Virus record (IMG/VR): IMGVR_UViG_3300031851_006037
Coordinates: 1 to 28,600 of that record
DNA: 28,600 nucleotides
From: a virus
Reading direction: 5' to 3' (one strand)
Numbering within the stretch: position 1 is the stretch's first letter; each line of letters begins with the position of its first letter. Below the pieces are notes generated by a model. The model was not told where the DNA came from. It did no database searches and saw nothing but the letters and a program-made list of their open reading frames with translations. This document shows, one piece after another, positions 3,390 through 23,940 of the stretch. The translations under genes were made by a program, and so were the position numbers.

Positions 3390-5075
3390 TTATCTTGCGG
3401 CGATAACATGAACATCGTATTGAGACTTTAATTGCTCTTGAAAATTTAATGTAAATTTTTGTTGATCAATATTAGATAATGTATATTTCATGGGTGTAGG
3501 TATATTTTCATACGGCCATGTATATATCGCAGCCTCTTTCCATTCATTTGCTTCGTTTGAATATATATAAACATAATCTTCTCCAATATGGAAATCGTCT
3601 AAGTCTGTGTCTTCGCTCTCATTAAAATCTGCTCCGCTAACGCTTATTTTAGACCAAAAGTCTTCGCCTGTACATATATATAAGAAATTTCCTTGAACCT
3701 CTTTATCTCCCGCGGAGCCAGAAGTTCTTTGTTCGATCGTAGCTGACACTCTTTTCCATTCGTTCGATTCAGAATAAAAATATTGATACGGATCTTCGAA
3801 TGCAAAATCTCCTTGTTGCCCAAAATCATTTGGCTTCCGACTTTGCTTTAATTGTAAAGTTAAATTCACTACGGGTTTTTTATTAAATTGTTCCGGAAAA
3901 TAAATGTCGTACGAAACATTACCTTCGTGGATCCCCGTGGAAAAAGATTGCATTTTCGTCTCATGCACCGACATGATTTTGGGTGTAGAAGCGCTAACTT
4001 GCAAGAAGTAGCCCGTTCCGGTAATTAAGTTTTCTAAATTTAATTTAAAAGAGTTTTCGGTTACATCAGATATATAATAATTAATAAAAGGCTCTGCAGA
4101 ATTATTTAATAATGTTGTTTGTATTGATGGAATTGACCCGAAAGTTTTTGGTAAATCGATGTCATAACTAATAAGCCCTGCATTAATCTTTTCGGAAAAG
4201 AAAACTGGCTCATCGTATTTTTGAGGAACCACCCTTTCGTAAGACCCATCTTCACCTGTTACATATAATTCCTGTATATATGCGTCTCCAGATATATTTA
4301 AAGATCCAGAATTATTATCTGTGTTGATACTTACATTTCCTGAATTGCTGATAGAGAATTTATTTTCTCCAGAGATAACAACATCTATTCCTGAATTTAT
4401 ATTTAAATAATTGGAGTCGTCTGCAGCAATCCTTAAATGGCCTGAGGAGAATTCAATAAAGCCTTCATGCTGATTGGATTTTAAGATCCCAGATAAATAC
4501 AAATCTCCATCTATAGATAAATTTCCTCCGCAAAAAATATCTCCAGAAGAAGTAAGGGTTCCACCTATATTCGCTTGATTGTTTGTAGTCAAGCTTTCTG
4601 AAGAGACACTTCCAGAGAATATTCCAGAACCTTGAGATGTAAAGTTTCCTTCGGAATAAATTCCTCCGTCAACCTCCAGAGAGGCTTGAGGATCTACTTC
4701 TCCGCCAGAAAACTTGTCTCCGATTCCAACTTTATTGAAATAAATTTGTTCCCCTATGAAGTTGTACCCGCTTATATCTCCTTCTTGAGTTGTATCTACA
4801 ATTTCTTTTGTGAATAATTTACCATTAAATGTGCAATCGTCTTCAAATATTTTTTTACCTCTAATTACTTGATCCCCCGTTATTGCAACAGTGTCATTCA
4901 CTATAGAACTTTTTAGGTCTTTAAAATTAATTACAGAATTATTTTCGTTGGGTTTTGTAACAAGAAACAAAAAATTGTCATGCTGATTGGACTGGGTGTT
5001 GCTTGGGGGTATTTGGTTCGGGAATGCATGCAGTGCGTCAATTTTTTGAAAACTTGATATGCGATTATTTTTCAT
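3390..5075 (-). CDS. Tail fibre-like structural protein
   Basis: This 561-residue protein looks like a trimeric fibre or receptor-binding protein. It is related to the next gene upstream: both start with an Arg-Ile-Ser motif, then a strand FLFLVTKPNENNSVINF (36-51) and TGDQVIRGKKIF (66-77), a motif frequent in fibres of uncultured marine phages. Residues 95-260 are short repeated strands rich in Gly, Ser and Asn (SGSVSSESLTTNNQANIGG and similar), as in beta-helical shafts. The C-terminal half has two segments resembling H-type lectin-like beta-sandwiches (SYDIDLPKTFGSIPSI and SYDIYFPEQFNKKPVV). Between residues about 408 and 515 sit three short hairpin units ending in a Trp (SNEWKRVSA, EDFWSKISV, NEWKEAAIY), also found in the gene at 6778. 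It is followed directly by the cargo promoter. Receptor binding is inferred. Confidence 0.72.
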   Translation of the reverse strand: MKNNRISSFQKIDALHAFPNQIPPSNTQSNQHDNFLFLVTKPNENNSVINFKDLKSSIVNDTVAITGDQVIRGKKIFEDDCTFNGKLFTKEIVDTTQEGDISGYNFIGEQIYFNKVGIGDKFSGGEVDPQASLEVDGGIYSEGNFTSQGSGIFSGSVSSESLTTNNQANIGGTLTSSGDIFCGGNLSIDGDLYLSGILKSNQHEGFIEFSSGHLRIAADDSNYLNINSGIDVVISGENKFSISNSGNVSINTDNNSGSLNISGDAYIQELYVTGEDGSYERVVPQKYDEPVFFSEKINAGLISYDIDLPKTFGSIPSIQTTLLNNSAEPFINYYISDVTENSFKLNLENLITGTGYFLQVSASTPKIMSVHETKMQSFSTGIHEGNVSYDIYFPEQFNKKPVVNLTLQLKQSRKPNDFGQQGDFAFEDPYQYFYSESNEWKRVSATIEQRTSGSAGDKEVQGNFLYICTGEDFWSKISVSGADFNESEDTDLDDFHIGEDYVYIYSNEANEWKEAAIYTWPYENIPTPMKYTLSNIDQQKFTLNFQEQLKSQYDVHVIAAR

Positions 5076-5080
5076 TATAA

Positions 5081-6727
5081 TTAACTAATTCTTTGGTTTT
5101 GTTTTTTGGTTGCTATTGTGTGAACTGTGAAATTATTTTGCGGAGCATTTTCAAAATTTAAGATGTACCCTGTGCTATTTACACCCGAAATTAAAAATTT
5201 ATCTTCCATATTAAGATTTTCTAGAGTTGCGGATATTTTAACGTCTTGATATTCTTCGGGAAAGTTTATTTCATATCTTTCACCTTGCACATTTAAGGAA
5301 TTTGAGAAACGGTATATTGATTTATTTTTTGATGCAAAAGTAGAATCTGAACCTCCCATAACAATTGTATGCAGTTTAGATTCATTGCTCTCTATATTTG
5401 AGTCAAATTCGATTTCATAAGAGTATTTATCGACCCCGTAAATTTTATAATTATTAACTCCGGTTTGGTTTTTGAAACAATTTTCTGTTGATGCAGAGAT
5501 TACAGGAACGCTTTTAAAAGTTTTTGGGAAAAAAATTGTAAAGTTTTTCTCCCCTGAATTTAAACGAGTAGAAAAAGCCATAGACTCTTCGTTTCCTCCT
5601 ATAAACTGTCCGGACCTATGATAAATAGATGAAATAAATGATTTTCCAGAAAATGAAATTTCTCCAGAAGTAACCCCGTTTCCTAGCACGTTAGATTCTC
5701 CGATGCGTATATAATTTTCAATATTACATGTTCCGGTGTTCGATAAGTTGAAAAGATCCTTAGATGAATCTTTAAAAATTAAATTCGAACCTATCGTCCC
5801 CGTAAAATTTTCCACTTTAATAATTCCTGACATTGCATTAGGGTGGGAAGTACAATAGTAACTATAACTCCCTGTTTCTGCTGCGGAAAAAACTGTTTGA
5901 CCACCTTCTTCTGAAGCGATAATATCGTCAGAGGAATCTTTTATTTCGAATGGGTGTCCCTCGCCTATATTGTTAAATATTAAAGTATTGCCTATGTAAG
6001 CTGTAATGGTCGGATCATCGCCTTGGACATCTTCAGTGAAACTATAGTCGGTTCCGTTTCCTATGATGTTAATATTTAAAGTTCTTGTATCTGAAATTTC
6101 TGCTTCTTTAGATATAAAATTTAATTGAGAGTCTGGGTAAAAAACAGAATCCTTGATTGACGTTTGGTTTCCGCTAACACTAAAATCATCTAGTCCAAAT
6201 ATATTGGTGCTAGAATTTAAGTTTTTAAGGCTCACCTCCTGCGCGACAATAATATTGTCGCATTGTAGGGCGTTGAAAGAGCTTGAGTTCTCATTGTTTA
6301 CAACCAAGTTTTCTAGGCAATCAATATCTAATGTGTTGCATCTAAATTTTTCCGGCACAGTTTTAATGTTTAATTGTTTGAAATATCCCGTTTTAGCTTC
6401 AAAGTTTACGCCCGAAGCGTTTTCTCCGGTCGATACTGATCCAATTGAATTTATTGAAAGCCTTCTGTTTATGCGAACTTCATTATCAAATATTTTCTTT
6501 CCGCTTATAGTTTGATCCCCCCTAAGATGTATAACTTCGGCCAGGGTTGAGTTGTATAATCCAGAAAATGATATAATTTCATTGCTTATCTTTGGATTAA
6601 TTACCATGAAATACCATTCATCGTTAAGCTCAGAGTATGAAGGCGGAGAACTTTCGTAGTTGAAATTCGTGCCGGAGGAAAAAAGCGGTCCAGTTTTAGG
6701 TAATTCTGATATTCTTTGATTTGGCAT
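5081..6727 (-). CDS. Tail fibre-like protein with a cupredoxin-like domain
   Basis: The 548-residue protein is a paralogue of the gene downstream, sharing the N-terminal RIS motif, the strand WYFMVINPKISNEIISF (38-54) and GDQTISGKKIF (70-80). Residues about 218-308 form an inserted domain with the plastocyanin/amicyanin ligand set: His258 (GEGHPFEI), Cys292, His295 and Met299 in YYCTSHPNAM, followed by the closing strand SGIIKV. This matches a type-1 copper site. The C-terminal third has beta-sandwich segments (NFTIFFPKTFKSVPVI and YEINFPEEYQDVKI) like those of its paralogue. Five bases separate the two fibre genes, so they are probably co-transcribed. Similar YYCxxH segments occur in structural proteins of marine phages, so a structural metal site or adhesion role is more likely than electron transfer. 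Confidence 0.74.
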   Translation of the reverse strand: MPNQRISELPKTGPLFSSGTNFNYESSPPSYSELNDEWYFMVINPKISNEIISFSGLYNSTLAEVIHLRGDQTISGKKIFDNEVRINRRLSINSIGSVSTGENASGVNFEAKTGYFKQLNIKTVPEKFRCNTLDIDCLENLVVNNENSSSFNALQCDNIIVAQEVSLKNLNSSTNIFGLDDFSVSGNQTSIKDSVFYPDSQLNFISKEAEISDTRTLNINIIGNGTDYSFTEDVQGDDPTITAYIGNTLIFNNIGEGHPFEIKDSSDDIIASEEGGQTVFSAAETGSYSYYCTSHPNAMSGIIKVENFTGTIGSNLIFKDSSKDLFNLSNTGTCNIENYIRIGESNVLGNGVTSGEISFSGKSFISSIYHRSGQFIGGNEESMAFSTRLNSGEKNFTIFFPKTFKSVPVISASTENCFKNQTGVNNYKIYGVDKYSYEIEFDSNIESNESKLHTIVMGGSDSTFASKNKSIYRFSNSLNVQGERYEINFPEEYQDVKISATLENLNMEDKFLISGVNSTGYILNFENAPQNNFTVHTIATKKQNQRIS

Positions 6728-6777
6728 GGCAGCAAGCTTTATTACACCAAAACAGGAGAATTTGTGTAATAACTTTA

Positions 6778-9465
6778 ATGGTACAAGGAGTAATGGACAG
6801 GTTGACCTATGAGCGGTTGGGGGTAATATTAACTGACGCTCCCGCGTACAAAGAGAGCGGGTCTAAATACAAGGATTTAATTAGGGTTCAAAATATGAGT
6901 TACGAATTAACTCATCAAGCCATAGATATTAAGGCGGTAGGAAGCGATGCGTTGGTTACTAGGGGTGGCCAAAGCCCCGTTGTTAGAGCTCCAGACGTTT
7001 CTTGTGATATAGGGTATTTATTTACTCACGGACTAAACGAAAGCAGTATAGGGTTTCATTTGAAGGAAGACGGCAGTATTTTAAAAAATTTTTTATTACA
7101 AAATCATACTGACGATATAAATATATTAATTGTTTCTTCAACCAAAAATGATCACGAGGATATTACTTTTTTGCAGTCCGAAAGTGATTTTGAAGATTTT
7201 AACATTATAGGTGTTGGTAACGCATTTCTGTCTCGCTATGCGTACAGCGCTTCAGTTGGCCAATTCGCCTCTAGCGTTGTTGCTTACGGAGGAAGTAATA
7301 TTCAATTTGATTTATATTCTTCTCAGAACAGGCCAAAGCTACCAGCTATAAAATTAGGTATTGACAATATCAGATCTAGTGAAGTATTAGAGTTGAGTCC
7401 GGAAAAGTTTGCAGATCTAGACCATGCTCCAGATAAAATATTTGATTCTCATGTTTTTCCTGAAATTTCTGCTATTAGTCCCGGAACAATAACTGCAACT
7501 ATTTTTAAAATTAGCGGTGACAGGGGTGGTGCTATTTTAGATTCTGCACATGCAGCCGTACAAAATATTAACATCGACCTTCCCATCCCAAGACAAGAAA
7601 TTTATGGATTGGGCAGCAACTTTATATTTGATAGGAAGTTAAAACTGCCCATTATTGGATCTCTTTCTATAGACATGATATTGAGAGAATATTCTCAAGA
7701 TCAGCTCAGCGGCTTCTTGAATAAGACAAATACTTATGATATTAAGATTGATCATAAAATTCATTCTTCTATAAACGGAGATAGCGGTGATTTTTTTGCG
7801 GACGACCTAAGTGAAAAATTTTACATTAACATAGGTGATGGACAATGGAAGGTCACATCTATTAGTCAAGCATCTATTGAAGAAAATTCTTCTCCACCTT
7901 TTGATGAAGAAGAATACATCTCTGGGCAAGAAGATTTTTATTATGTTAAGGTAAGGGGGTCTACATGGTTGAAAATTCCTCTTGAGGCTAGCGATTTTAC
8001 ACTTGCGGGCAGCGATGTATTATCTAAGTTCTATCAGGGAGATTATGTGCATATCAAGACCGAAAGTTCTTTTCGCAAATTTGCAGTAACAGATGTTATT
8101 ATTGATAATGACTTAATTCAAGAATTGTCTTTTGATTCTGCTGTAAAAATAGTTAACAACATTACATTCGAAATTAACAACGCGCAATTGCAAAACCAGT
8201 CTTACACTCATGAAATAGGTTCTGATGTAATGGTTAGCTCCGCTTTATCTTTTGGAGTAACGAAAAATGATGGCTTAAAACTTTATCCACGATTTATACC
8301 AAGAGATCCTCCTGATTGGTCTAGCGGTTTCGACTCTATAACTCATGATGAAAATAACTCTTCTGCACTAAATTACGATAAAACTTTAGAACGTGGCGAC
8401 AGCAAGGTCAACTTTTCAGCGGGAGGTGCAGATGGGCAATATTTTGAAGTGCATCCAGATGGAGAAATATTTTTTCTTGAGGCTCCAGACTTTGAAACTA
8501 AATCTACTTATTCGTTATCTATAACAGCAACAAATGATGCTGGATCGTCTTCAAAAAATATAGACGTTCAAATTATAGATAAAAATGATTCTAATCCTGT
8601 TTGGAGCCTGAGGGAAGAAGCCGTAGATCACTTAGAGGGAGAAACTATAGTAAATTATAATCAGTCTTTAAATATAGATTCTGCACTTAGTTTTTACGGT
8701 TTATCTGGAGAAGATAAGAAATATTTTTCTTTATCCTCTTCAGGAGAACTATCTTTCAATTTTACTCCAGATTATGAAACCGCTACGAAAAAGACTTATA
8801 ATTTATTTATAACCGCTTTTAATGAGTTTGGAAATACAGATAAGTTGCTAAGTATCAATCTTATAAATCAAATAGATTCTTCTCCAGAATGGGTAATTAA
8901 TTCTGAAGATATTCTTATCGAAAGAGGTGATTTAACTAATTTAAATATTATTGGTCAAATAAAAGAATTTCAAGATCACCCTGTTTCATACTCTATATTA
9001 GGACAAGACTCTGCGCTATTCCAAATCTCAGCAGAGGGGAATATATCTTTCGTTGGGCAGGCTAGCTTAATAAATAAGACCTCACTTTATTTCGAAGCTG
9101 AAGCCTCTAATAATATAGGTTCGAATGTTAAACAAGTGAGCATAAAGATTAATCAAGCTGTATTTATCGAGGACAGTCGAGTTGTGTTTGAGGGGGCTGT
9201 TCCTGGAGAATACCTTAAGGTCGGTTCCGTTCAAGAGTTTAGAATTTTACCTGCTTACGGGTTTAGGGAGGATTATTCTGTCATGGATTTCGCTTATTTC
9301 GCCGCAGGCGGATACGATTGGGCTAAGGTCGCCTTGGTTCCATCTGAGTTAAGCGATCAAGAAGAATTCGATGTTGCTCAAGAGGGCGATAAGGTCTTCA
9401 TCGAAGATTACGTTCATATTTATACAAATATTAGCGGTTGGATGAAAACCATACTCACCCAATAA
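6778..9465 (+). CDS. Tail tube-like protein fused to cadherin-like repeats
   Basis: The 895-residue product starts with a region homologous to the tail tube protein at 9520. Matching pieces are RVQNMSYEL with RVQSANYSF, GVGNAFLSRYAYSASVG with ALGNGFVTNYSVEASVG, LPAIKLG with LPAINNQ, and VQNINIDLPIPRQEI with VQSFSIDIPVGRSTI. Near 7789-8090 lie short Trp hairpin units shared with the fibre at 3390. From about 8310 to 9165 there are three cadherin-like repeats with PDFETK and PDYETA, ITATNDAG, and IDKNDSNPVW, the last close to the calcium-binding DxNDNxP motif. ATG at 6778 was chosen; a TTG at 6721 would overlap the divergent fibre start, and ATG 6793 has AAGGAG only 2 bases away. The gene is alone on its strand between minus-strand blocks and ends in its own terminator. 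It may decorate the tube or tip and bind cell surfaces. Confidence 0.75.
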   Translation: MVQGVMDRLTYERLGVILTDAPAYKESGSKYKDLIRVQNMSYELTHQAIDIKAVGSDALVTRGGQSPVVRAPDVSCDIGYLFTHGLNESSIGFHLKEDGSILKNFLLQNHTDDINILIVSSTKNDHEDITFLQSESDFEDFNIIGVGNAFLSRYAYSASVGQFASSVVAYGGSNIQFDLYSSQNRPKLPAIKLGIDNIRSSEVLELSPEKFADLDHAPDKIFDSHVFPEISAISPGTITATIFKISGDRGGAILDSAHAAVQNINIDLPIPRQEIYGLGSNFIFDRKLKLPIIGSLSIDMILREYSQDQLSGFLNKTNTYDIKIDHKIHSSINGDSGDFFADDLSEKFYINIGDGQWKVTSISQASIEENSSPPFDEEEYISGQEDFYYVKVRGSTWLKIPLEASDFTLAGSDVLSKFYQGDYVHIKTESSFRKFAVTDVIIDNDLIQELSFDSAVKIVNNITFEINNAQLQNQSYTHEIGSDVMVSSALSFGVTKNDGLKLYPRFIPRDPPDWSSGFDSITHDENNSSALNYDKTLERGDSKVNFSAGGADGQYFEVHPDGEIFFLEAPDFETKSTYSLSITATNDAGSSSKNIDVQIIDKNDSNPVWSLREEAVDHLEGETIVNYNQSLNIDSALSFYGLSGEDKKYFSLSSSGELSFNFTPDYETATKKTYNLFITAFNEFGNTDKLLSINLINQIDSSPEWVINSEDILIERGDLTNLNIIGQIKEFQDHPVSYSILGQDSALFQISAEGNISFVGQASLINKTSLYFEAEASNNIGSNVKQVSIKINQAVFIEDSRVVFEGAVPGEYLKVGSVQEFRILPAYGFREDYSVMDFAYFAAGGYDWAKVALVPSELSDQEEFDVAQEGDKVFIEDYVHIYTNISGWMKTILTQ

Positions 9466-9497
9466 AAAACCCCCTAATTTTCATTAGGAGGTTTTTT
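9464..9497. terminator. Bidirectional Rho-independent terminator between convergent genes
   Basis: AAAAAACCCCCTAAT (9464-9478) pairs with ATTAGGAGGTTTTTT (9483-9497) around a TTTC loop, giving a 15-bp stem with one C/A mismatch. The run of T after the GG on the plus strand and the run of A before the CC provide a T-tract in both directions. It sits in the gap between the stop codons of the convergent genes ending at 9465 and 9520. Confidence 0.88.
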
Positions 9498-9519
9498 AAA
9501 ATAGAGCTATTAATTTAAA

Positions 9520-10794
9520 TTAAGCGAAATACTGATGTATTCCTGTGGCATTTCTTGATCCAGAAATAAATAGTCCGTTTCCTGTGTCTTGTGGGCCACC
9601 AATTTGAGCTGTAAATGTTAAATCTACTGTTTTATTATCTCCAATCGAAGAACTGAAAGATTCTCCTTCCAACCTTGCGTTTCTGATTGTAAACAGCATT
9701 GCAATGTCTCCGGTTCCGAATTGGTCTGGCTCTCTTAATGTAAATTGTAAATCGTGCTGTTCTTGATCAAACAGAATGTCTGTAACATTGCCTTCTTTTA
9801 GGTCAGAAAGTATAGCACTTACAGAAACATTAATATTTAATGGAAAATCTACAACTTTACTGTATCCATATGGGTTTCCAAGTCTTTCAATAGTGCTTCT
9901 TCCTACTGGAATATCAATACTAAAACTCTGAACGTGAGCGCTGCCTGCATCATAATCTTTTTCGGGGTCAGAAAAAGGAAGCGGTTCGAACAAACTTGCT
10001 CGACCTCCGTTGCCTAGCGCCATATGAATATCTCCAGGACGTAAGCAAGAGAGCCCTTCTTTGCCAAAATCAATCTCACTGTCCACATCGTGCACTCCGC
10101 TAATCGCAGGAGGAATAGAAAACTCTCCCCCTGTCATTGGAATACCAAATTGATTGTTGATTGCTGGAAGCTCAAGGTCTTGAGTTCCTGTATAACTTCT
10201 TAAATTAAATCCGTCAATTGTAACCGAGGCTGTCGGCATTCCACCTACAGAAGCTTCAACCGAATAATTTGTAACAAAACCATTTCCAAGGGCTATTACG
10301 TTCTTAAAAGATTCTGCATCTTCGTTTCCTACTGCATCTGTACCCTCTTGGGTCGTAATAATGAAAAAGTTCTTTCCTCCTGGGTTTTCCGCATCTTCAG
10401 TTCTTCCAAGGAGAATATCTCCTGCAATCGCTGATGAGGCTCCGTCAACATTCATTCCTAGAATTTTTTCATTAATACCGTTGGTTAGGTAATATGAAAA
10501 ATCTAATGTAACTGTGGGCGGCTCAAGCGAAACCGAGTCGATTCTCGCTAGTTGGCCGAATTGATTGACGTCTTCTCTGTTTACTGTGAAACTATAATTT
10601 GCGCTTTGAACCCTGCGCAATTGCATGATTCCAGTACGCATATCTCCCCCTGCAGCAACCGCTTCTGCTCTGGTGGAGTATCCTGTTTTTGTTGACCAAC
10701 CGTCGCTTGATACGCTGTAGTGATTACCTGTGGCATCAACTGTTCCGGCGTACAACGCCTCGCTTTGATAAATTACTCTTGCTCTATTTGCCAT
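9520..10794 (-). CDS. Major tail tube protein (candidate)
   Basis: This 424-residue protein is the last gene of the minus-strand connector block, where lambda-type phages place the tail tube gene V. The sequence is rich in beta-strands and small residues. Marker segments are RVQSANYSFTVN, a strand pair VTLDFSYYLTNGINEKILGM, NVIALGNGFVTNYSVEASVG, HVQSFSIDIPVGRSTI and RLEGESFSSSIGDNKTVDL. These recur in the proteins at 6778 and 23062 and more weakly at 23937, which marks a tube-fold family. Being the most compact copy, with no extra domain, and standing next to the connector genes makes it the best candidate for the main tube subunit. No ribosome site is visible before ATG 10794; the 67-base gap upstream may hold a promoter. 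The function is inferred from position and paralogy. Confidence 0.68.
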   Translation of the reverse strand: MANRARVIYQSEALYAGTVDATGNHYSVSSDGWSTKTGYSTRAEAVAAGGDMRTGIMQLRRVQSANYSFTVNREDVNQFGQLARIDSVSLEPPTVTLDFSYYLTNGINEKILGMNVDGASSAIAGDILLGRTEDAENPGGKNFFIITTQEGTDAVGNEDAESFKNVIALGNGFVTNYSVEASVGGMPTASVTIDGFNLRSYTGTQDLELPAINNQFGIPMTGGEFSIPPAISGVHDVDSEIDFGKEGLSCLRPGDIHMALGNGGRASLFEPLPFSDPEKDYDAGSAHVQSFSIDIPVGRSTIERLGNPYGYSKVVDFPLNINVSVSAILSDLKEGNVTDILFDQEQHDLQFTLREPDQFGTGDIAMLFTIRNARLEGESFSSSIGDNKTVDLTFTAQIGGPQDTGNGLFISGSRNATGIHQYFA

Positions 10795-10861
10795 AATATT
10801 TTTATATGTATGAAGTTAAATTTCTGTTTAAAATTACATTTTTTATGTTATAAAGGGAACT

Positions 10862-11710
10862 TTATTGTCTTGGAAATCTTAAATTGGTTATTTCGAAATC
10901 TAAAAATCCAATAAATAATGATTGATCTATGTTTTTATTTATACGATCACTTAGTTTTGATGCCCTGACATCTTCTATATGAAAAAGTTTAGATTTTTTT
11001 TCTAAAGCGAGTGTTTTATAGTTGAATCCTGAAACGTCTCCAAATTCATTTAATGGGTAATCGGAAAATTCTAATTTTGAGAAAACTTCATTTTTTGAGT
11101 CTGAGAATGCAGATAAAGCCCCATCAAGCTGAAAAGTATTTTCTGCAAAAATTACGCATCTTATATTTGTCGTCGTTTTATCTTCCCCTCCAAACGCAAA
11201 AGCTTCGTTTTGAACTAATTCTGGATTGACAAAAATTGCAGGAACAACTTGTTTATGAGGAGCAATTCCAGAAGAATTCTGCTTGAATCTTCCGTTCGAG
11301 TCAAATTTACTTTCAACTATAAGCTGCTCCTCTGTTTGGTTGGTTATATAAAAATTAAATTCTTTTACAGAGTATTCCCCGCTTAACGAATTATTGTCTC
11401 CGCCAAAAGACGAATTAAGTATAACCCTGCCATCGTCAAAATCCAAAATTAATCCGTCCTCCCCTCTTTCCATGAAAACTCCGTCATTGTAAATTCCGCT
11501 GGGTACTTGCGCACCCTCAACGCTTTCATCAAAAACCCACTGTTTGTGAGGACTGCTATACGTGACAAATCCGTCTCCAAGTTGATCGTCTGTAGCCATT
11601 GGATAAAGAGATGACGTATAATTTTGGTAAGCCTCCGCTTTGTTTGTGATAAAATTATCCGCCCAAAGCATGAAGCTTGTAGTTAGTTCGTGTTGGAATT
11701 GGGGTTTCAT
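10862..11710 (-). CDS. Tail completion/terminator-like structural protein (unassigned family)
   Basis: The 282-residue protein begins MKPQFQHELTTSFMLWADNF, a helical N-terminus, then continues mostly as predicted strands (GLILDFDDGRVILNSSFGG, VKEFNFYITNQTEEQLIVES, TNIRCVIFAENTFQLDGALS). The end is SLFIGFLDFEITNLRFPRQ. It starts 2 bases after the stop of the connector-like gene and lies just before the tail tube gene, the place of the tail terminator (lambda gpU) in related maps. It is much longer than gpU (about 130 residues), so the role is inferred from position only. No catalytic motif, signal peptide or membrane segment is visible. Confidence 0.5.
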   Translation of the reverse strand: MKPQFQHELTTSFMLWADNFITNKAEAYQNYTSSLYPMATDDQLGDGFVTYSSPHKQWVFDESVEGAQVPSGIYNDGVFMERGEDGLILDFDDGRVILNSSFGGDNNSLSGEYSVKEFNFYITNQTEEQLIVESKFDSNGRFKQNSSGIAPHKQVVPAIFVNPELVQNEAFAFGGEDKTTTNIRCVIFAENTFQLDGALSAFSDSKNEVFSKLEFSDYPLNEFGDVSGFNYKTLALEKKSKLFHIEDVRASKLSDRINKNIDQSLFIGFLDFEITNLRFPRQ

Positions 11711-11712
11711 TT

Positions 11713-12336
11713 TTAAAAGTTTTTAACAGAAACTCGTGAAGCTTCAATTGAATTTAAGTTATTTTCGAATTTTGATAAAATTTCTTTAACGTATGGCATT
11801 CTAACCATTCCCCCTTCAGTCTTGTTTTTGTTTTGAAATCCTGCCCCGGAGCGACTTCCTCCGCTGGGCTTATACATATACTGACCGAGGTTCGGAATTC
11901 CTCGCCCCTCGAGCTCCCTGAGCCAACTGGACCCGTTGGACCACGGCATAGGTGTGTTTGAATACAATTCTTGCAGGGAGGGCGAAGTGACTATATATGT
12001 CCAAATGAAACCATGTGTTCCAATGCTTCTGTTTTTAATAAAGATGCTTGTTTTTTCTAATAAATTAGATAAAGGACTTATTGGATCTGTTCCTTCCGTA
12101 AATCCTATAAAGCCATATAGATTACCTTCTGATAAAGTATTACTTATGTTTGATGATCCTGAACCAGCTTTAAGTTCTCTCGTAACAGGGTGACCCTCAA
12201 AGTCTCTAATCATCTGATTTTTTACATTCCTAAATTGTTTCTCAATGATTAGTCTAGCCTGAATAAACAAGTCTTTATCTTTTTTAAGTTGAGATTTAAC
12301 TGAACTTCTAATTGATCTATTCAGTGCTTTGGCCAT
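11713..12336 (-). CDS. Head-tail connector/neck-like protein
   Basis: The 207-residue protein starts at ATG 12336 (MAKALNRSIRSSVKSQLKK); an in-frame TTG at 12345 is an alternative. The basic helical N-terminus, followed by a helix IIEKQFRNVKNQMIRDFEGHPVT with charged spacing, then strands and a Gly/Ser-rich loop (SGGSRSGAGF), fits the general look of HK97 gp10-like neck and tail-completion proteins. It overlaps the head closure candidate by 20 bases and is followed at once by the tail completion candidate. No specific motif proves the family; the call rests on gene order and composition. Confidence 0.5.
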   Translation of the reverse strand: MAKALNRSIRSSVKSQLKKDKDLFIQARLIIEKQFRNVKNQMIRDFEGHPVTRELKAGSGSSNISNTLSEGNLYGFIGFTEGTDPISPLSNLLEKTSIFIKNRSIGTHGFIWTYIVTSPSLQELYSNTPMPWSNGSSWLRELEGRGIPNLGQYMYKPSGGSRSGAGFQNKNKTEGGMVRMPYVKEILSKFENNLNSIEASRVSVKNF

Positions 12337-12802
12337 TTTGTTCAATTGGTCTCAAGAATAATGTTATAAACTGAACTTTATCAAAAAGTCCGTGAGCTCT
12401 AGGGTCAGACTCCACATGAAACATTCTTCCGTCTAATTCCACTCTTTTTGCTTCTTTTAAATAATCGTAATCTTCCAGCTTTAATTTTATTCTTACCACA
12501 CTACTAGGATCTGGTCTATTAACTTTTATTTGTGTGCCCGCTTCTCCAAATTGTTCCAGCGTTCGATCCGTATCGTATCTTATTCTTGCTTTAAAAACTT
12601 TTTTAACAGGAACGTTTTGTACGCTAGGAGTTGACTTTCCAGAATTTCCGTATAGATAATTATAATTAGGGTCTGTACTTATAATTACTTTTTTAGCTTC
12701 TTTATAAACGATAATATCTCTTCCAAATGTATCGTGAAGGTTGAGTAAGTTTTCGGCAATACTCTCTTTTTCTTCGGCTGAAAAGAAATCTGTCATAAGC
12801 AT
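12317..12802 (-). CDS. Head closure / head-tail adaptor-like protein
   Basis: The 161-residue protein is the first gene of the minus-strand virion block. A helical start (SAEEKESIAENLLNLHDTFG) is followed by strands IIVYKEAKKVIIST, VKKVFKARIRYDT, VVRIKLKLEDYDYLKEAKRVELDGRMF (residues about 102-128) and VQFITLFLRP. The pattern of an oligomeric beta-barrel with a long loop is seen in head closure proteins such as SPP1 gp16, and a similar position is held by lambda FII/Z. There is no ribosome site before ATG 12802; a second ATG lies two codons later. The divergent gene starts 67 bases away. The assignment is by position and general structure only. Confidence 0.5.
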   Translation of the reverse strand: MLMTDFFSAEEKESIAENLLNLHDTFGRDIIVYKEAKKVIISTDPNYNYLYGNSGKSTPSVQNVPVKKVFKARIRYDTDRTLEQFGEAGTQIKVNRPDPSSVVRIKLKLEDYDYLKEAKRVELDGRMFHVESDPRAHGLFDKVQFITLFLRPIEQNGQSTE

Positions 12803-12869
12803 ATTTACACTAAAGATTATTTTTTGTGTATCTGTTTATAGGCACAAGGTTAAATAAAGGTATAAGTAT

Positions 12870-13157
12870 ATGGAAGCAGAAGACATTTTTAAAAAATGTT
12901 ATCATCGGAATACAGTTTCTCTGTTTAAGGGTTTCTTGATTATTCTCGAGGATTTATATAAAGAGCATCAAATAAGTTTTGATAAATTAAAGAGCAACCT
13001 TCCAGAGGGCTGCATACCTGTTGTTGACCAGGCCGATTATTTCAGCGAAGAGAAATTAAAGCATCTTCGAAAGAAAACTTTAGATATTGGTAATGAAACT
13101 ATTAGAAATATCGAGAGTGAATTAGATAATTATACTATAGGATTTACATTTAAATAA
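12870..13157 (+). CDS. Small helical protein, first gene of the chaperone/tape measure operon
   Basis: The 95-residue protein is predicted to be almost all helical (FLIILEDLYKEHQISFDKLK, EEKLKHLRKKTLDIGNETI), with a short loop LPEGCIPVVDQADYF between helices. An AAAGG ribosome site lies 9 bases upstream of ATG 12870. It opens the plus-strand operon and ends 2 bases before the next gene. The place just before tail chaperones and tape measure suggests a role in tail assembly, possibly a small chaperone partner. I do not recognise the family. It is unlikely to be a false call: the gap from the divergent gene is short, the ribosome site is good, and spacing to the next gene is tight. Confidence 0.62.
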   Translation: MEAEDIFKKCYHRNTVSLFKGFLIILEDLYKEHQISFDKLKSNLPEGCIPVVDQADYFSEEKLKHLRKKTLDIGNETIRNIESELDNYTIGFTFK

Positions 13158-13159
13158 TC

Positions 13160-13984
13160 ATGACAAAATCAGCAACAGAAGAAAAACTAGAGACAATGGA
13201 CGATACTCGAAAAAAGTTGAGAGAAATCTACAGCTTCACTTTTGAGAAAGAAGAAAAAACAAAGAAAACTGAGACTAGCGAAGTTACTAATCCTGAGACT
13301 GGCGAAAAAGAAGAGGTCTCTGTAACTAAAGAAGTGTCTGAGGAAATTCCATACAGAATCATAATGAAGCAGCCTACGCGAAGGCAAATTGAAGAAGCTG
13401 AGTTGGAGTTTAGTGTTGAGATGAGCAACTGCATCAAGAAAGGTATTCTCACGAAAGCTATGTTGGCTAAAAAATACAGTGATACCGGAGGTTTATTAGC
13501 GGAAGACGACGCAAAAGCCCTGACTAAAATGTATGTTTCTTATGGAGAACTGTCTCAAGAAAGTGAAAAATTAAACGTAAAAACTACTGGACGCACAGAA
13601 AAAGATGATGCAAGAATTAAAGAAATATCTGGCGAAATCTCGTTATTAAGAAAAGATATTATTAATGTAGAAACTTCGTACGCTAATCTATTTAATCATA
13701 CTGCAGATGTTCGCGCTGAAAATAAAGTTATTCAGTGGTATATTTTAAATTTAACACATATTCAAAAAGATGATGAAGATAGCTCGAAGCCTTTATTTGA
13801 AGGCAGAGATTTCGAAGATAAGCTTCAACGTTATTATGAATTAGAAGAAGAAGGCGACGAAGTTTACGATATAATCGGCGGGAAAGTTGCTGCTTTATTT
13901 AGTTTTTGGTATTATAGTTCTGGCGCTGTTACTAAGGCAGACTTTGAAAAACTTGATAGCGATATCGAAGAGGGTAATATATAA
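13160..13984 (+). CDS. Tail assembly chaperone-like protein 1
   Basis: The 274-residue protein is highly charged (long runs of Glu and Lys in residues 27-62) and predicted helical, as tail assembly chaperones are. The core from residue 65 reads YRIIMKQPTRRQIEEAELEF, then KKGILTKAMLAKKYSDTGG and AEDDAKALTKMY. The next gene has the same order: VVYIKHLTPHDQVELEEIEE, KKRGVPTEQDMLDYLKEEGQ and TEDDEKTITEKT. This points to a duplicated family just upstream of the tape measure, the usual place of chaperones gpG/gpGT. The C-terminus FEDKLQRYYELEEEGDEVYD is acidic. No signal or membrane segment is visible. The role is inferred from location and the helical, charged composition. Confidence 0.62.
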   Translation: MTKSATEEKLETMDDTRKKLREIYSFTFEKEEKTKKTETSEVTNPETGEKEEVSVTKEVSEEIPYRIIMKQPTRRQIEEAELEFSVEMSNCIKKGILTKAMLAKKYSDTGGLLAEDDAKALTKMYVSYGELSQESEKLNVKTTGRTEKDDARIKEISGEISLLRKDIINVETSYANLFNHTADVRAENKVIQWYILNLTHIQKDDEDSSKPLFEGRDFEDKLQRYYELEEEGDEVYDIIGGKVAALFSFWYYSSGAVTKADFEKLDSDIEEGNI

Positions 13985-13987
13985 TAT

Positions 13988-14974
13988 GTGGAAACTACAA
14001 GGCGCAGAAGAGTATTTAGAGATGTAGTCAGAGGTCATTCTACTACAGTTCTAGACGACAAAGTCGTATACATTAAGCATCTTACTCCTCATGACCAGGT
14101 AGAGCTTGAGGAAATAGAGGAGCGCTATTTCGAATCCGCGAAAAAACGGGGCGTCCCAACTGAGCAAGATATGCTTGACTATCTAAAGGAAGAGGGTCAA
14201 TGGACAGAAGACGACGAAAAAACTATCACCGAGAAAACTTTATATATTGAAAACTTAAGAAAAACATTAACTAAATTAGTTTTAAAGGCAGAAATTGATC
14301 AACAGAAAAAAGTAATTGAAGAAGAAAGCTCTATTCTTACTCGCAAACAAAACGAAAAAATTAATTTAATTGGCAATACTTGCGAAAGATATGCAAAAGA
14401 AAGATTAAATGATTTTTATATGATTTATTCTTTTTATAAAGATGAAGATATGAGTTGTAAGTTGTTTAGTGAGAACGAGTTTGATGAATTAGAAAACGAA
14501 GATATAAAGCTTGTTATAAATAAATATAATCAAGTATTCGAAGGATTCTCAGAAGAAAATATACAATATACTGTTCTTGAAGATTTTTATAATCCTTATC
14601 TTAGCTTTGCTGAAGACAGTCTTCAGTTTTACGGAAAGCCATTTTGTGAATTAACATATAATCAAATAAGATTAATCGTTTATACTAGAGTATTTAAAAA
14701 TATATTTGACACAAATGAAAATATACCAGAAAAAATAAGAAAAGATCCTGCGAAACTTTTAGAATTTGGTAGCAGCTCAAGAGAAGAGAGGGAAAAAATA
14801 AAAGATAAAGTGACGAGTGGGGACGGAGGTACTATTGTTGGGGCCAAAAAAGAAGATTATGATCGATTGGGAATAGAAAGACCTACTGGCAGCGTTAATT
14901 TACACGAAGAAGCCAAAAAGAAAGGTGGTAGCCTTAACATGGAAGATTTAATGAAATTGCACGGAGTCGTTTAA
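13988..14974 (+). CDS. Tail assembly chaperone-like protein 2
   Basis: The 328-residue protein starts at GTG 13988, three bases after the previous stop; an overlapping ATG at 13986 in another frame ends after 13 codons and is rejected. Its first 150 residues align in order with the upstream gene (see KKRGVPTEQDMLDYLKEEGQ, residues 52-71, and CERYAKERLNDFYMIYSFYK). A second half without a match carries FYNPYLSFAEDSLQFYG, LTYNQIRLIVYTRVFK and a C-terminal GGSLNMEDLMKLHGVV. It lies directly before the tape measure. The two chaperone-like genes are separate frames, so the classical programmed frameshift of G/GT is not needed. Function is inferred from position and paralogy. Confidence 0.6.
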   Translation: METTRRRRVFRDVVRGHSTTVLDDKVVYIKHLTPHDQVELEEIEERYFESAKKRGVPTEQDMLDYLKEEGQWTEDDEKTITEKTLYIENLRKTLTKLVLKAEIDQQKKVIEEESSILTRKQNEKINLIGNTCERYAKERLNDFYMIYSFYKDEDMSCKLFSENEFDELENEDIKLVINKYNQVFEGFSEENIQYTVLEDFYNPYLSFAEDSLQFYGKPFCELTYNQIRLIVYTRVFKNIFDTNENIPEKIRKDPAKLLEFGSSSREEREKIKDKVTSGDGGTIVGAKKEDYDRLGIERPTGSVNLHEEAKKKGGSLNMEDLMKLHGVV

Positions 14975-14991
14975 TTTTTAGTGTATAGATA

Positions 14992-15010
14992 CCTTATCTA
15001 AGGAATAAGG
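14992..15010 (+). promoter_or_regulatory. Hairpin covering the tape measure ribosome site (candidate)
   Basis: CCTTAT (14992-14997) pairs perfectly with ATAAGG (15005-15010) around a 7-base loop. The AAGG of the 3' arm is the nearest ribosome-binding sequence, four bases before ATG 15015. A second AAGGA lies in the loop at 14999-15003. Folding would hide the nearer site. The stem is short and AT-rich, so chance cannot be excluded. Confidence 0.35.
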
Positions 15011-15014
15011 AAAA

Positions 15015-18000
15015 ATGGCTATTAATCTTGACGTACACGGTAATACACAACCTCTTGAGGCAGCGGTTCAAGCTGCAGTAAATAGAATTCGCAGAACGCC
15101 AATTAAAATAACTGTTGACGATAAGGGTGCGACACAGCCTTTAGGCAACATGAAGCGCGGGGCTGACGAATTTACAAAATCAATGGAGGCCGCTAATGCT
15201 CGTATTATAGCATTCGGTGCTTCTATGGCAATTATAAATGGCGTAGCAGATTCTTTTAAAGCTATGGTTAGGAATATGGTTGAGGTTGAAAAATCTCTTG
15301 CGGACATTAATGTTGTTATGGGCTTGAACGCTCAAAGCCTTGATAAATTTAGCGATGGTTTATTTAAAGTCGCAAAAGAAACTGGGGCAGCGTTTAAAAT
15401 AGCAGCTGATGCGGCAACAGAATATGCCCGTCAAGGCCTTAATGTAGAAGAATCTCTTAAGAGGACTAAAGACGCTCTTATTCTTACTCGATTAACAGGA
15501 ATGGATTCTGCAGAGGCGGTAAAATCTTTAACTGCCGCAATGAATACTTACGGGCACCAAATAAAAGATACTACTCAATTGGTAAGTAAGTTTGCTGCCG
15601 TAGATGTAAAGTTTGCTGTTAGCGCAGAAGATTTTGCTGACGCTATTTCCAGAACTGGTGCTGCAGCAAAAGGAGCTGGTGTAGATATTGACGAATTAAT
15701 AGGTTTGGTTACCGCCGCCCAACAACAAACTGCTCGAGGCGGAAAGGTTATTGGTAACTCGTTTAAAACAATTTTTACTCGTATCGGAAGGACAGATACA
15801 TTAAATCAATTAGAAAATCTTGGCATTGCTGTTAGGGATATTGAAGGTAAAACTCTTGGCGCTAAACGAATACTCTCTGATTTAGCTAATACATTTGATA
15901 CATTATCTGAGGCTCAAAAAGCTCAAATAGCTCAAACTGTTGGTGGAGTTTTTCAAATCAACGTTTTGAAAGCTGTTCTTGGTGACGCTGCAAAGCAAAA
16001 TGGTATTCTTGCAAATGCCACGCAAATATCTGCAAGTGCAACAAACGAGGCTATAACAAAAAATGAACAACTAAGAAACACAATGGCCGCAATGGCCACA
16101 GAAACAGGTCTCGCAATAAAACAAGTTAGCGCTCAAGCGGGCGAAATAGCATTAGGCCCTGGAATAGAAAAAGTACTTAATACAGTTAAGGCTCTCGCCG
16201 AAAACATAAGTGGTTCGTTAGGTGATGGAGAGGGCGCTGGAAATGAATTCGCTAAAGGTTTATTAAGAGGTATTGGTAATGTTATTACGGGTCCTGGATT
16301 AGTAGTTTTAACGACGGTCTTTATTAAATTATTTGGACAAGCGTTTAAGTTTACTAGAGATAGTTTAGGGTCTTTAATTGGCATAACTAGTGAAGCTCAA
16401 AAGCAAAAAGCCATTCAAACGTCGCTTGTTACTTTATTTGGGCAAAACGCCGCATTAAGCAAGGAAATGTTGCGCACAGATATAAGTAGAACCGAGAAAG
16501 AAAAGGTGATTTTAGGTTTGCTTAAAGCTCAAGTCGCTGAAGCTAATGTTTTAAATAATGTCAGCAAGCAAGCCGCCGCAACTTTGTACTCTAAAGGGTT
16601 TGGCGCAAGCTTGACCCCAAGAAAAGGTCGCGCCTACGGCCATATTCCTAATTTCGCTCACCCAGAGAGAGAGCAAGCCGCTAAAGGTGGATACTCTGCA
16701 GGAAATATTCGAGAAATGAATATGCCTGGGGAGGGCCCAATTATTTATAATAGCTCTGAGACGGTTAAGAATTTTAAGGGGATGAATCAGCCTGCAATTA
16801 TGCCTCCTCAATCAAGCAAAGCTGGAAAAAACTATCAACAAGCATTTGGTGATATACATGGGTTTGATCCTTATGCTGCAGGGGGGTATATACCGAATTT
16901 TATAAAGCCTTCAATAAAATTAAAAGATAGGCCTGATATAACCACAAGGAAGCAGGCTGAAGAAGCGGGTTATAGTGGTGCTTCAATTGGTTCAAGATTT
17001 GGTAAGACTAAGGCTAGTAAGTCATCTGATTTAAATAAATCGAGATTCAAAAATATTAACCCTCTTGGAGAAAAGTATGTTGTATTAACCGCATCTGAAG
17101 GTCCGGACTCTGTTGCCGGATCATACTTTGTTGGGAATAAAAACATGAAAAAGGGTAGAGCCCAACAATATCCTTCGGCGTTTAAAAATCTAAAAAATGT
17201 TGCTCCAGCTAAGGTAGATGTACCTTTTTATTCTTTAGATGCTAGAGATAAAGAATTAAATGCAGGTAAAAACTCTCCTTTTAAAAACACAATATATGAT
17301 GGACTTAAAAAATCTGGCGGACAGTTAGTTGGTAAAATATTAAGCGACTTAGGTTTTTCTTCTAAGGTCAACAAAAGAGACGTTCTTACAGACAGGGACG
17401 TTTCTGCTATGGGGGGCAACGTTTTCGAGGGTGTTATAGCTTCTGTATTAAACGATAAAAACTTTAATGAGTATAAAGGTCGAGGAGAGACTGCAAGAAT
17501 TGATCTTCCTAGAGACGATGACTTGTATAGGCTTTTCGGCGTAAAAGGTGGAAAATTAGGGGCAGAGGCAAAAATAACCTCTCGAAAAGACAATATTAAG
17601 GACGCCGCTGTTAAATTTTACGACATGATTATGCCTGGAATGTCTGAAGGTTATATCCCTAATTTCGCAAAAGTAAAATGGTCCATCGATAAAAAGAAAG
17701 GTCAATATGGATTGACCGGGTCTCATATGGAATTAATGCAATTCGTGGATTACCTTGAAAGAGCTGGCGTCGAACCTAAGAAACTAGAAGTTTTAAAAAC
17801 AAGAATTAAGAAAATCCAATCAAACGTAGGCAAAAAACGAACAGAATTTAAGCAAAATAATGTTCCAGGTTTTGGTAAATCTGGAGCAAGGTATTACGAC
17901 CAACTTAGGGCTATCAGTGAAGGTAGCTATCTTGATACAAAAGGAACTTTCATAAAAGACCTTGGTAAGCATGTTAAGGATTTTAATCGAGGTGGAGGTA

Positions 18001-21000
18001 TGTTTGCTGCTAGTCTAAATGCAGGCAAAGGTTTTATACCTAACTTTGCAGCAGATCCCTTAACTGATGCGATAGGCAGAGAGCGTGACGCAGGAATTCC
18101 TGTTTCTCAAATCAGAGTAGGAACTCATTCAGCCTTAATGAATAAAGGTAATCCAATTGGTCTTGGCGTAACTAATACAAAAGATGAGCCGAATGGTTTG
18201 CGCGATGTGTTTGGTTCGGCTAATGGATTTGTGCCGAATTATGCTATACCCACACTTTCTGCAGGCGATATGGGCTTCAGGATAGATAAGACTCAGCAAC
18301 AATTAGCTGATCAATACAATTCAGAATTAAAGAAAAGAATCAAAAGAATGAAGAAGGGGGATTATTCCTTTCAACAATTACAAAGATCTATTTCTACCTT
18401 AAATGATAGGTATAATATAAGCGCCAGCGCGCAACAAAATGTCAATAAAGAAATAAGAAGCTTAAGCGGTCCTATTATTAGCACTAAAAGAGCTTTTTCT
18501 TCTCTAGCTAAAGGTGCATCTTCTGTAAATAAATCTTTTTCGAGATCGCCAATAGGTAAAGGCTTAAGCTCTTCAGGGGCGCAAATGGGCTTAATTATGG
18601 GAGCTCCAATGTTAGGGGGTATGCTTCAAGGAGAAGGTCCTGGAAAAGTGGGCAATTTTCAGTATCAAGCTGGCGGAGCCCTAACGGGGATAGGGACTGG
18701 GGCGTCCATGGGTATGATGTTTGGCCCTCTTGGCGCCGCTATCGGTGGTGTTGTCGGAGGTTTTGCTGGTCTTTTAAGCTCATCTAATGAATTGAAAGAG
18801 GCCCAAGAAAAGGCGGCTGAATCTATAGCTCAAAGAAAATCTGAGTCGATTTTAACTTCTCCTGTAGCTAATGAAGCTTTTGGTAAAATAGGAGAAGATC
18901 AAATGGGTAAACTAGCAGCTCTAGAAAAAGAATTACAAAAAAGTTTTGAACCTCAGTTGAAGAAACAACTTGCAAACATAGAAAATAACCGAAGAGATGT
19001 AGTGTCCAAAGGGACAAATATGATGGTCCCGGGAGCTTCGTCAGCATTGAATCTTGGATTTTCTACCCGTAAAGAAAAAGCAATAACAGAGAACTCTGTG
19101 AAATTAAATGTTGAAGCTGCAAAGCAAAGAAAAAGTGCATTGCTCAACGCTTTGAAAACTTTAGATCCTTCTACAGAATTTATGGGCAAGGATATTAAAA
19201 CAGGAAAAGAAAAAACTTATACAACATCGTCTTTTATTGAAGATATTAATCAACTTGACATAACAAAAGAAGAAGATCAAAAAGCCTTAAAGAAAGCATT
19301 TGAAAACGGCAAAACTCTACAGGAGAAGACTAACCTTGGGCTTGAAAAACAGCGCAAAGCAGTTATTCTTCAACTCAATCTTCAGAAAGCAATTATGCAA
19401 GCTCAAATGCAAGCTAAGCAGTCTCAACTTGATATTAAAGAAAAGTATTTCAAACAATCTAATATGATTGATTCTCAAACTAAAATTTTGGGAGATCTGA
19501 TGAATGAAGAGGTTAAGGCTAGGCTGATTTATAATAAAAAGTTGATTGAAAGCGCTGAAAAAAGAGACGCCGGAGAGCAGGCCGCAAGAGACACAGCTCG
19601 ATTAAATATTCTTCAAGACATTAAAAGCTCTCAGGGTGGAGGTTTAGAGCAAGCCTTAAAGCAAGCATTGTTTAACAAAAAAGATAAAGAAGAATTGGCT
19701 GGTATATCATTTAAAGACTTAACTGATAAATTAGATAAAAAATCAGCGGAAGATTTACTGGAGATATTGCTTGAGCTACCACAAGCAAACGCAGAGGCAG
19801 GCGAAATTGCCGATCAGAGAGGTAAACAGTTGACAGCTCAAATATCTATATTAAATAAAGAGAAAATGCTAAGAGATAATATTTCTGCCATTGAACACAA
19901 AGATCTGGGCAATATTAGTCGAAAAAAAGATGCTTTAAATTTGGTTAATTTAGAATTAAGCGAATATGTTCGTGGCCTTGAGCATGCCGCAAGTATAAAG
20001 GGAATCGAGCAAAACATTGCCGGAATTAAGTTTTCGAGCCCAAGAGCAGGAAGAGGAATATATAGAAGTGAGGAAGAAAAAATTCAATTTGAAAAAAGAA
20101 TGCTAGATGAAAGACCTAATAGGCTGGAAATTAATCAAATTAATGAAGCCAAAAGGTTAGTCGAGTCTCTAAAGATAGACCCATCTAATATTGATTTAAA
20201 AGAAATGATCGATCCAGAAACAAAAGCTATAGATATTGAAGCTTTAAGGCAAAAAATAACTGATTCTACGCTGAAACCTTTTAAAGAAAAAAATGATGAA
20301 TTTTTAAAAGAAAATAAAGCTGAATTAATTGGGTTGGAGTCTGGAAGAGAACAAAGATCTGAGAAGATAACTGAAATAATTACTGTCAACATGGATAAAA
20401 AGACAGGTAAGTTAAAAGACTTAAGCGCTGAGGATCAAAAAATTATCGACGACGAATCTAGGTATCAACAGTTGCTGGAGCAAAAAAATAATCTCGAAGC
20501 GCAGTCTTATAATTTATCTAAAGAAACCTCAACTGAAATAGAATCTGGATTGCAATCTCTTAAAGATGCTGTCGAGCTGGAAGGAAAAAGAAACGAAGAG
20601 CTTCGTACGCAATTGAATCAACGAGAAGAATTATTAAAATATAAAAGGGGCGAGGCTATCGGTTCTGACGACCGCTCTGCAATAAGTAGAGGTATGTCTG
20701 ATTCATTTGCCGAAATGAGAGATCAGGCTCAATACATGCATTATGAAATAGGCAAAAGAGTTCCTAATTTATTGGCTGATGGCTTAGCTGATGCCATGCA
20801 AGTAGCTTTAAATGGCGCAGATGATCTTGGTGACGCAATGACTCAAATAGGAATAAATTTTTTGCAATCTATACAATCTGCATTTTTACAGCAAGCCGCT
20901 CAAGGTATTGTTGGAATGATGGGTTTTAATGCCACTAATAGATATAATGGTGGACCTATAAGGAATTACTCCAAAGGCGGATCTGTTCCCGCTATGGTTT

Positions 21001-23061: not shown

Positions 23062-23940
23062 ATGAGTTATTCTAATTACGAGCAAACTGTAATTATCAAT
23101 GGTTACGAATTATTAGGTGTTCAGTCTGTAGATGGTAGCTACGGAATTAGCGAGAAACCAATTAGAGTTGCTGGCGTAGGATTTATTGACGCATTAATTG
23201 ATTCTCCTTTGCAAGGGAACTTTTCTATAGGTAGGAAAATGGTTGGCTATGACCCTTTGTTGGAGAAAAATATATATGGTAAGTATAAATTTGATGAGGA
23301 GGAAATTAACGGTTCAATATTATATGAAAATAATACAAAGGGTTTTGGGTTTACGAAAGGAAGAGTTTCGAGATACTCTGTAAACTGTTCGGTTGGTGAA
23401 ATTCCTGATATTCAAACTGATATCATAGTTTATGGACAACTCGGAAAAGATGTATCCATGAATCCTGCAACAAAAGAAAATAAAAATATAAAATATCCAG
23501 ATCAGTCAACAATCAGGGTTACTATTAGCGATTTTTCAATCGATGCAGTTAGTTCTTTTGCTTATAGCAGGGGAATAAATGTAAATGCTGTATATGGTTT
23601 ACCTAAAGGTGATTCTTCTGACTGGGAAAACTCTCAAGCTTCCGTTAAAAACTTAGAGCCAATTCAGATCGATACTCAGTATCCAATAGAAACAGATATA
23701 AATGTATCCATTATTGCTGATCAATACGAAATCAGAGAAATAAAAGATAGAATTCAGTCCGCTCCAAAAAGCGATGTTAAAATAGAAATTTTAGATTCTT
23801 ACGCACAAACTGATATCAATACGTTTGAGATTGAGAGCGCTCGATTAATTAGTGAGGCAATCAATAGTACTGTTGCAGAGGAAATGAATATTTCTTTAGC
23901 TTACAAAGGCTACGAAACCTACCACAACCCTTTAGTATGA
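23062..23940 (+). CDS. Tail tube-like protein (third paralogue)
   Basis: The 292-residue protein starts one base after the tape measure stop codon and shares the tube-family markers. FTKGRVSRYSVNCSVGEIPD (113-132) matches LGNGFVTNYSVEASVGGMPT of the protein at 9520, IRVTISDFSID with HVQSFSIDIP, YPIETDINVSIIADQYEI with FPLNINVSVSAILSDL, and ESARLISEAINSTVAEEMNI with NARLEGESFSSSIGDNKTVD. The size is smaller than the candidate major tube protein. Position after the tape measure and before the M-like gene is where distal tail proteins are encoded, so it may form a ring joining the tube to the tip. It overlaps the next gene by 4 bases (ATGA). The role is inferred. Confidence 0.65.
   Translation: MSYSNYEQTVIINGYELLGVQSVDGSYGISEKPIRVAGVGFIDALIDSPLQGNFSIGRKMVGYDPLLEKNIYGKYKFDEEEINGSILYENNTKGFGFTKGRVSRYSVNCSVGEIPDIQTDIIVYGQLGKDVSMNPATKENKNIKYPDQSTIRVTISDFSIDAVSSFAYSRGINVNAVYGLPKGDSSDWENSQASVKNLEPIQIDTQYPIETDINVSIIADQYEIREIKDRIQSAPKSDVKIEILDSYAQTDINTFEIESARLISEAINSTVAEEMNISLAYKGYETYHNPLV

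Follow-up and report, generated by a model that had tools for sequence, protein, structure and literature searches.

In phage T5, the tube domain of the tube protein pb6 is duplicated, and the protein assembles into trimeric rings (PMC8718954). The same phage carries p140, which is described as a duplicate of the tube protein that is only 9% identical to it, forms one ring at the tip, does not have the Ig-like domain of the tube, and lies inside the p132 collar that holds the side fibres (PMC10038345). In SPP1 gp17.1* and lactococcal TpeX, domains borne on the tube can aid host contact. Known tail decorations are of two kinds: either the main tube subunit bears added domains, or a plain paralogue of it forms a ring at the tip. 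In the consulted portions of the literature, including PMC6669499, PMC10276861, PMC8718954, PMC10038345, PMC3556154 and PMC4332376, we found no tube paralogue that has a gene of its own and carries an internal insert or cadherin-type domains.

The locus compared here with these systems lies in the IMG/VR record IMGVR_UViG_3300031851_006037, taken in full (28,600 bases, hereafter the window), which may be part of a larger genome. The record includes a tail region of siphovirus type, in which an ORF of 2681 aa occupies the place of the tape measure and lambda M-type and L-type tip genes are present. We propose, with a probability of roughly 55%, that one gene of this region, referred to as the cassette, encodes a second, dedicated minor tube-type ring protein displaying host- or fibre-contact domains.

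The cassette gene and its surroundings

The genes and repeats of the locus are the following.

3390..5075, minus strand: fibB, a fibre-type gene with an H-type lectin domain (Pfam H_lectin, E 9.2e-6) and an insert-like domain at 3501-3824
5081..6727, minus strand: fibA, a divergent fibre-type gene with a cupredoxin-like stretch at 5810-5938
6739..6772, no strand: conserved inverted repeat TTATTACACCAA/TTTGTGTAATAA in the gap from which the cassette and fibA diverge
6778..9465, plus strand: cassette gene (895 aa), encoding a tube-type protein with an insert, three cadherin-like domains and a C-terminal module; open reading frame, start backed by relatives
9463..9498, no strand: two-way terminator-like inverted repeat between the cassette and the tube gene, preserved in relatives
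9520..10794, minus strand: tail tube gene with a double tube domain of T5 pb6 type (fold match), adjoining the tape-measure gene in distant relatives

The original prediction placed the cassette alone on the plus strand, from position 6778, and both points hold: the ORF is real, and the flanking fibA and tube genes are both on the minus strand. The mechanical ORF opens earlier, at a TTG at 6721, but the start at 6778 is backed by the relatives, in which an in-frame stop lies shortly before the corresponding codons (GTG GCA CAA GGA). The claim that the cassette ends with its own terminator stands in part. A terminator-like hairpin is indeed located at its end (16 nt, 94% complementary, with an A run and a T run); however, it can serve both converging genes, the cassette and the tube, and is thus not solely that of the cassette. 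This repeat is absent from the list produced by a terminator scan of the window.

The repeat between the divergent starts has the pattern TTACAC-N-GTGTAA and occurs at exactly one site per record in 8/8 whole-cassette records and at none in six others; it is perhaps an operator or a shared promoter. Promoter-like sites did not exceed those in shuffles. A Shine-Dalgarno match of at least 4 bases is missing from 17 of the 19 genes of the window, with the cassette start taken as 6778, so that its lack at the cassette means little.

The AF2 model of the main tube protein is poor (pLDDT 49). Its best fold matches are double-domain tubes, those of T5 (Z 14.2, 268 residues, rmsd 4.3) and P74-26 (Z 13.7), with further matches to the DT57C and SH-Ab15497 tubes; a PDB sequence search with this protein returned weak, unrelated matches only. 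The protein ends with its tube domain and has no C-terminal extension. In the related record L015, the tube gene is in two overlapping frames (6093-7413; 219 + 239 aa), perhaps through an assembly error. The block ending with the tube (9520-23060) is opposite in direction to the tape-measure block in the group of the window, an inversion that leaves the cassette and the fibres on its far side; in the distant relatives L005, L022, L025 and L026, tube and tape measure have the same direction. Two proteins are encoded after the tape measure (23062-24839). The first, T2 (23062-23940), shows a weak match to the C-terminal half of the tube profile (probability 85, E 5.9e-6), so one more ring of tube type may be present in the tail. 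T2 gave no match to the cassette and none in a PDB sequence search. T3 was also considered as a tube relative and was rejected, as the comparison gave no signal.

Two further observations concern the neighbourhood. Residues 264-306 of fibA (5810-5938) are cupredoxin/plastocyanin-like (Pfam Copper-bind, 22.2 bits for a cut-off of 21.2) and contain GHPFEI and CTSHPNAM; L004 has a similar stretch, and fibA of L003 is shorter and without it. A GMP reductase-like gene is found near the tail genes (1723-2787; 349.8 bits, above the NCBIfam cut-off of 344), with two small neighbours whose products resemble nucleoside 2-deoxyribosyltransferase-type and acetyltransferase-type proteins.

Domain composition of the cassette protein

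The cassette protein can be divided as follows, all parts being on the plus strand.

6778..7317, plus strand: N-terminal arm with tube domain 1, residues 1-180 (similar to the tube by BLASTP and hhalign)
7549..7749, plus strand: tube domain 2, opening part, residues 258-324 (hhalign match with the C half of the tube)
7750..8145, plus strand: insert splitting tube domain 2, residues 325-456 (132 aa), homologous to a fibB domain by the insert HMM
8146..8286, plus strand: tube domain 2, closing part, residues 457-503; cassettes of the short form end two residues beyond
8302..8598, plus strand: cadherin-like domain 1, residues 509-607, with the DKNDSNP linker (Pfam Cadherin, fold match)
8599..8886, plus strand: cadherin-like domain 2, residues 608-703 (self-similarity to domain 1, fold match)
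8887..9156, plus strand: cadherin-like domain 3, residues 704-793, without the calcium motif (fold match, self-similarity)
9283..9453, plus strand: C-terminal module, residues 836-892, in which the insert module recurs as a weaker copy (insert HMM)

The predicted homology of the first part to the tail tube protein is corroborated by BLASTP (E 4e-18, 26% over residues 34-329 as numbered from 6793, five residues later) and by hhalign (probability 99.6, E 3.5e-24), and it covers both tube domains of the cassette (approximately the first 503 residues). When residues 325-456 are removed, the C half of the cassette matches the C half of the tube almost to its end (hhalign, E 1.6e-13). As the match resumes beyond the insert and continues nearly to the end of the tube, residues 1-503 seem to make up a complete double tube domain of T5 type rather than a part of one. 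One point missed by the original prediction is that the second tube half, according to these profile comparisons, is split by an insert of ~130 residues homologous to a domain of fibB. Compared with each other, the N and C halves of the cassette give a probability of 3.4, and those of the tube protein 59 (E 9e-5).

The N-terminal arm is among the best conserved cassette windows (4 of 314 as good), with 21 of its 26 positions (residues 8-33) invariant across eight cassettes. The second long loop also ranks among the best conserved (21 of 312 windows as good); the first is not unusually conserved (62 of 306). The loop sequences are distinct from those of the tubes. In T5 pb6, the published description attributes the ring-ring contacts to such segments, an N-terminal arm and a long loop (PMC8718954).

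Structure prediction of the fusion was informative for one part of the protein only. With an alignment of nine rows, AF2 gave a mean pLDDT of 43, with residues 1-336 under 50; it left the tube part unresolved, and the fold assigned to this part therefore rests on homology. The Foldseek list for the model is filled by cadherins, which makes the lack of tube matches in it uninformative. A PDB sequence search with the cassette gave no match. The low-confidence model nevertheless has residues 508-794 matching cadherin EC domains (Foldseek E 1.3e-12), and its domain 3 aligns with EC1 of cadherin-23 (VIA-align Z 11.0, rmsd 2.8, 97 residues).

The presence of three cadherin-like repeats after the tube part (residues 509-793) was confirmed by self-comparison: repeats 1 and 2 score 146, versus 29.5 +/- 5.4 in shuffles (0/500 as high), repeats 1 and 3 score 81 (0/500), and repeats 2 and 3 score 57 (1/500). 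The Pfam Cadherin profile matches one repeat with E 9.9e-6 and 26.3 bits, under its curated cut-off of 28.8, and reaches 19.8 bits in the cassette of the nearest relative, L009. As for the DxNDxxP calcium-type motif originally reported, it is complete at one linker only (DKNDSNP, residues 601-607, 8578-8598); linker 2 reads NQIDSSP, repeat 3 is without the motif, and L009 has DKVDSNP in place of DKNDSNP. Calcium binding at every linker of the cassette was consequently rejected.

The insert is present in 8/8 distinct cassettes compared. The insert HMM matches fibB of the window (E 3.8e-13) and of L009 (7.7e-10), as well as the f1 fibres (fibB) of L010, L011, L013 and L014 (E ~1e-25 to 2e-24), and it also matches the C-termini of two long cassettes, those of the window (E 9.4e-5) and L009 (6.5e-7). 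Among the other proteins of the window tested, fibA gave E 0.47 and the remaining 16 gave 0.9 or worse; in L012 and L015, both fibres (340-360 aa) are without the module by the same HMM. By eye, the insert-like domain is situated inside the lectin-like C-terminal part of fibB. Part of the insert has weak matches in structural proteins of Synechococcus phages (24 records, E 2e-3 to 8e-2).

Relatives, age and divergence

Profile searches over 14 viral records besides the window found the whole cassette core in eight, at the same place in all eight, with a shared order of fibre-type genes, inverted repeat, cassette, terminator and tube. The contig of L016 ends within the cassette, its visible end being of the short type, and that of L019 stops ahead of it; the cassette is constant in every record of the group spanning the site. 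In the more distant L005, L022, L025 and L026, the tube alone matches in the cassette and tube profile searches. These relatives were found by alignments, strict patterns from a single sequence having missed copies that are 68% identical. A search of 50,697 phage records for cassette relatives gave none (3 records, best E 4), and a pattern scan of genome contigs gave 33 pattern matches, of which 0 were confirmed.

Two forms of the cassette exist. The long form, with a C-terminal Ig-type extension made of cadherin-type domains, is found in the window, L009 and L008, the latter two differing at one residue; 6/8 whole relatives have a short form without the cadherin part, which ends two residues past the tube domain. 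The cadherin part is thus a lineage-specific addition, a second point that the original prediction missed. The simpler reading is that the extension was gained in the branch of the window, as the main tube is also without an extension; its loss in the other branch is a less simple alternative.

A tree of 21 proteins groups the cassettes in a single clade (100/100), well separated from every tube, near or distant, and cassette-tube identity is 22-26%, about equal for near and far tubes. The cassette is therefore an old dedicated protein, and its origin as a recent copy of the tube of its own phage was rejected on the same grounds.

The window and L009 were compared by identity, the cassette dS being saturated or undefined. 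The tube is 97% identical and the tube parts of the cassette 84% and 90%; the fast parts are the insert (53%), the cadherin domains (64/67/52%) and the C-terminus (49%), and the fibres fall in the same range, with 57% for fibA and 62% for fibB. The tape measure entered this comparison with its first 1350 residues only. Such a pattern is that expected of a conserved core bearing outward-facing, changing parts, if the parts are so arranged. The evidence for exchange of the cassette together with the fibres is mixed. The fibB-fibA-cassette block of L010 is 89-93% like that of L011/L014, and its tube is closer to L012/L013, as if the block moved together. In L003 and L004, the cassettes are 100% identical by rounding, with fibA 56% and fibB 62% alike, and this indicates that cassette and fibres are not tightly matched.

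Proposed role and comparison with known systems

The proposal of a dedicated minor ring is substantiated by the tube homology over both halves, the separate clade, the conserved arm and loop, the fibre-like divergence and the occurrence of the insert module in fibB; it is weakened by the AF2 model, in which the tube part is not resolved, by the two halves of the cassette, which do not detectably match each other, by the unexceptional conservation of the first long loop, by the differing fibres of L003 and L004, and by T2, which is placed where a tip ring is expected and could fill this role. We hypothesise that three cassette subunits would form a pseudo-six-fold ring, which would cap the tube or be stacked on it at one special site or a small number of them, the neighbourhood of the fibre-bearing tip being the most likely. 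The insert, and in this phage the cadherin arm, would project sideways, with three arms per ring, and may contact the surface of the host or hold the fibres in place. The original description as a decorated tube subunit or a tip protein remains apt in that the sequence is best read as a tube-fold protein that projects extra domains, but projecting cadherin domains cannot be the basic job of the cassette, as 6/8 whole relatives and the edge fragment of L016 do without them. What all cassettes have in common is the insert of tube domain 2, which the adjacent fibre shares. A more specific version can be advanced tentatively, in which the cassette is an old dedicated adhesin ring, one per tail, whose exchangeable host-contact modules are drawn from the fibre pool and whose three cadherin-type arms, acquired in one branch, may stiffen in calcium-containing water.

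A first alternative is that the cassette is a decorated subunit scattered along the tube, like gp17.1* or TpeX, and provides weak, many-copy host contact along the tail. The fold family and the C-terminal Ig-type extension are as in these two proteins, and in the 936 phages several tail proteins have a binding module in common, comparable to the insert here. We consider this rather unlikely, since the cassette has a gene of its own on the opposite strand, only 22-26% identity to the tubes and distinct loops, and most of the whole relatives (6/8) have no C-terminal decoration. It is improbable that the cassette instead forms a tail-completion or neck ring between tube and head, with whisker-like projections as in neck passage structures. 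Its gene does lie near the tube and the preceding block of small genes, which are connector or completion genes by position only, and neck passage proteins of lactococcal phages carry binding modules; however, homology of neck type was not found, and the constant other neighbours of the cassette are fibre-type genes. Finally, an independently transcribed moron-type accessory gene, a cargo outside the virion, would suit the opposite strand and the terminator at the cassette end but is very improbable in view of the tube homology, the constant presence across the group and the domain in common with the fibre.

If the dedicated minor ring protein is real, a tube paralogue that is separately encoded, evolves independently and shares a module with the neighbouring fibre would represent a third means of arming a tail. 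The cassette would also be a concrete protein to seek in virions. We regard T5 p140 as the nearest precedent for such a ring. Like the cassette, p140 is a double-domain tube paralogue with its own gene, in a phage with side fibres. The differences are that the cassette has the insert and, in one branch, cadherin-like domains that would project, p140 being described without a projecting domain, and that the cassette gene adjoins the tube and fibre genes and does not follow the tape measure. In its long form, the cassette resembles SPP1 gp17.1* and TpeX, in which a tube domain is followed by C-terminal Ig-type or binding domains that decorate the tail. Their extended forms arise by frameshift from the tube gene, whereas the cassette is an old paralogue with its own gene on the opposite strand, and what is constant in it is the internal insert. 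T5 pb6 is of the same double tube type as the tube of the window. Both pb6 and lambda gpV have a C-terminal Ig-like domain on the main tube subunit; here, in contrast, the main tube is unextended, and a second protein bears three cadherin-type domains. The 'evolved' Dit of lactococcal phages, likened here by description, also has a binding module within a tail ring protein that is common to other tail proteins, but both the ring protein and the module are different. As the cassette lacks one defining feature of gp17.1*/TpeX and one of p140, it is best regarded as a variant that would work like them and not as a member of either type.
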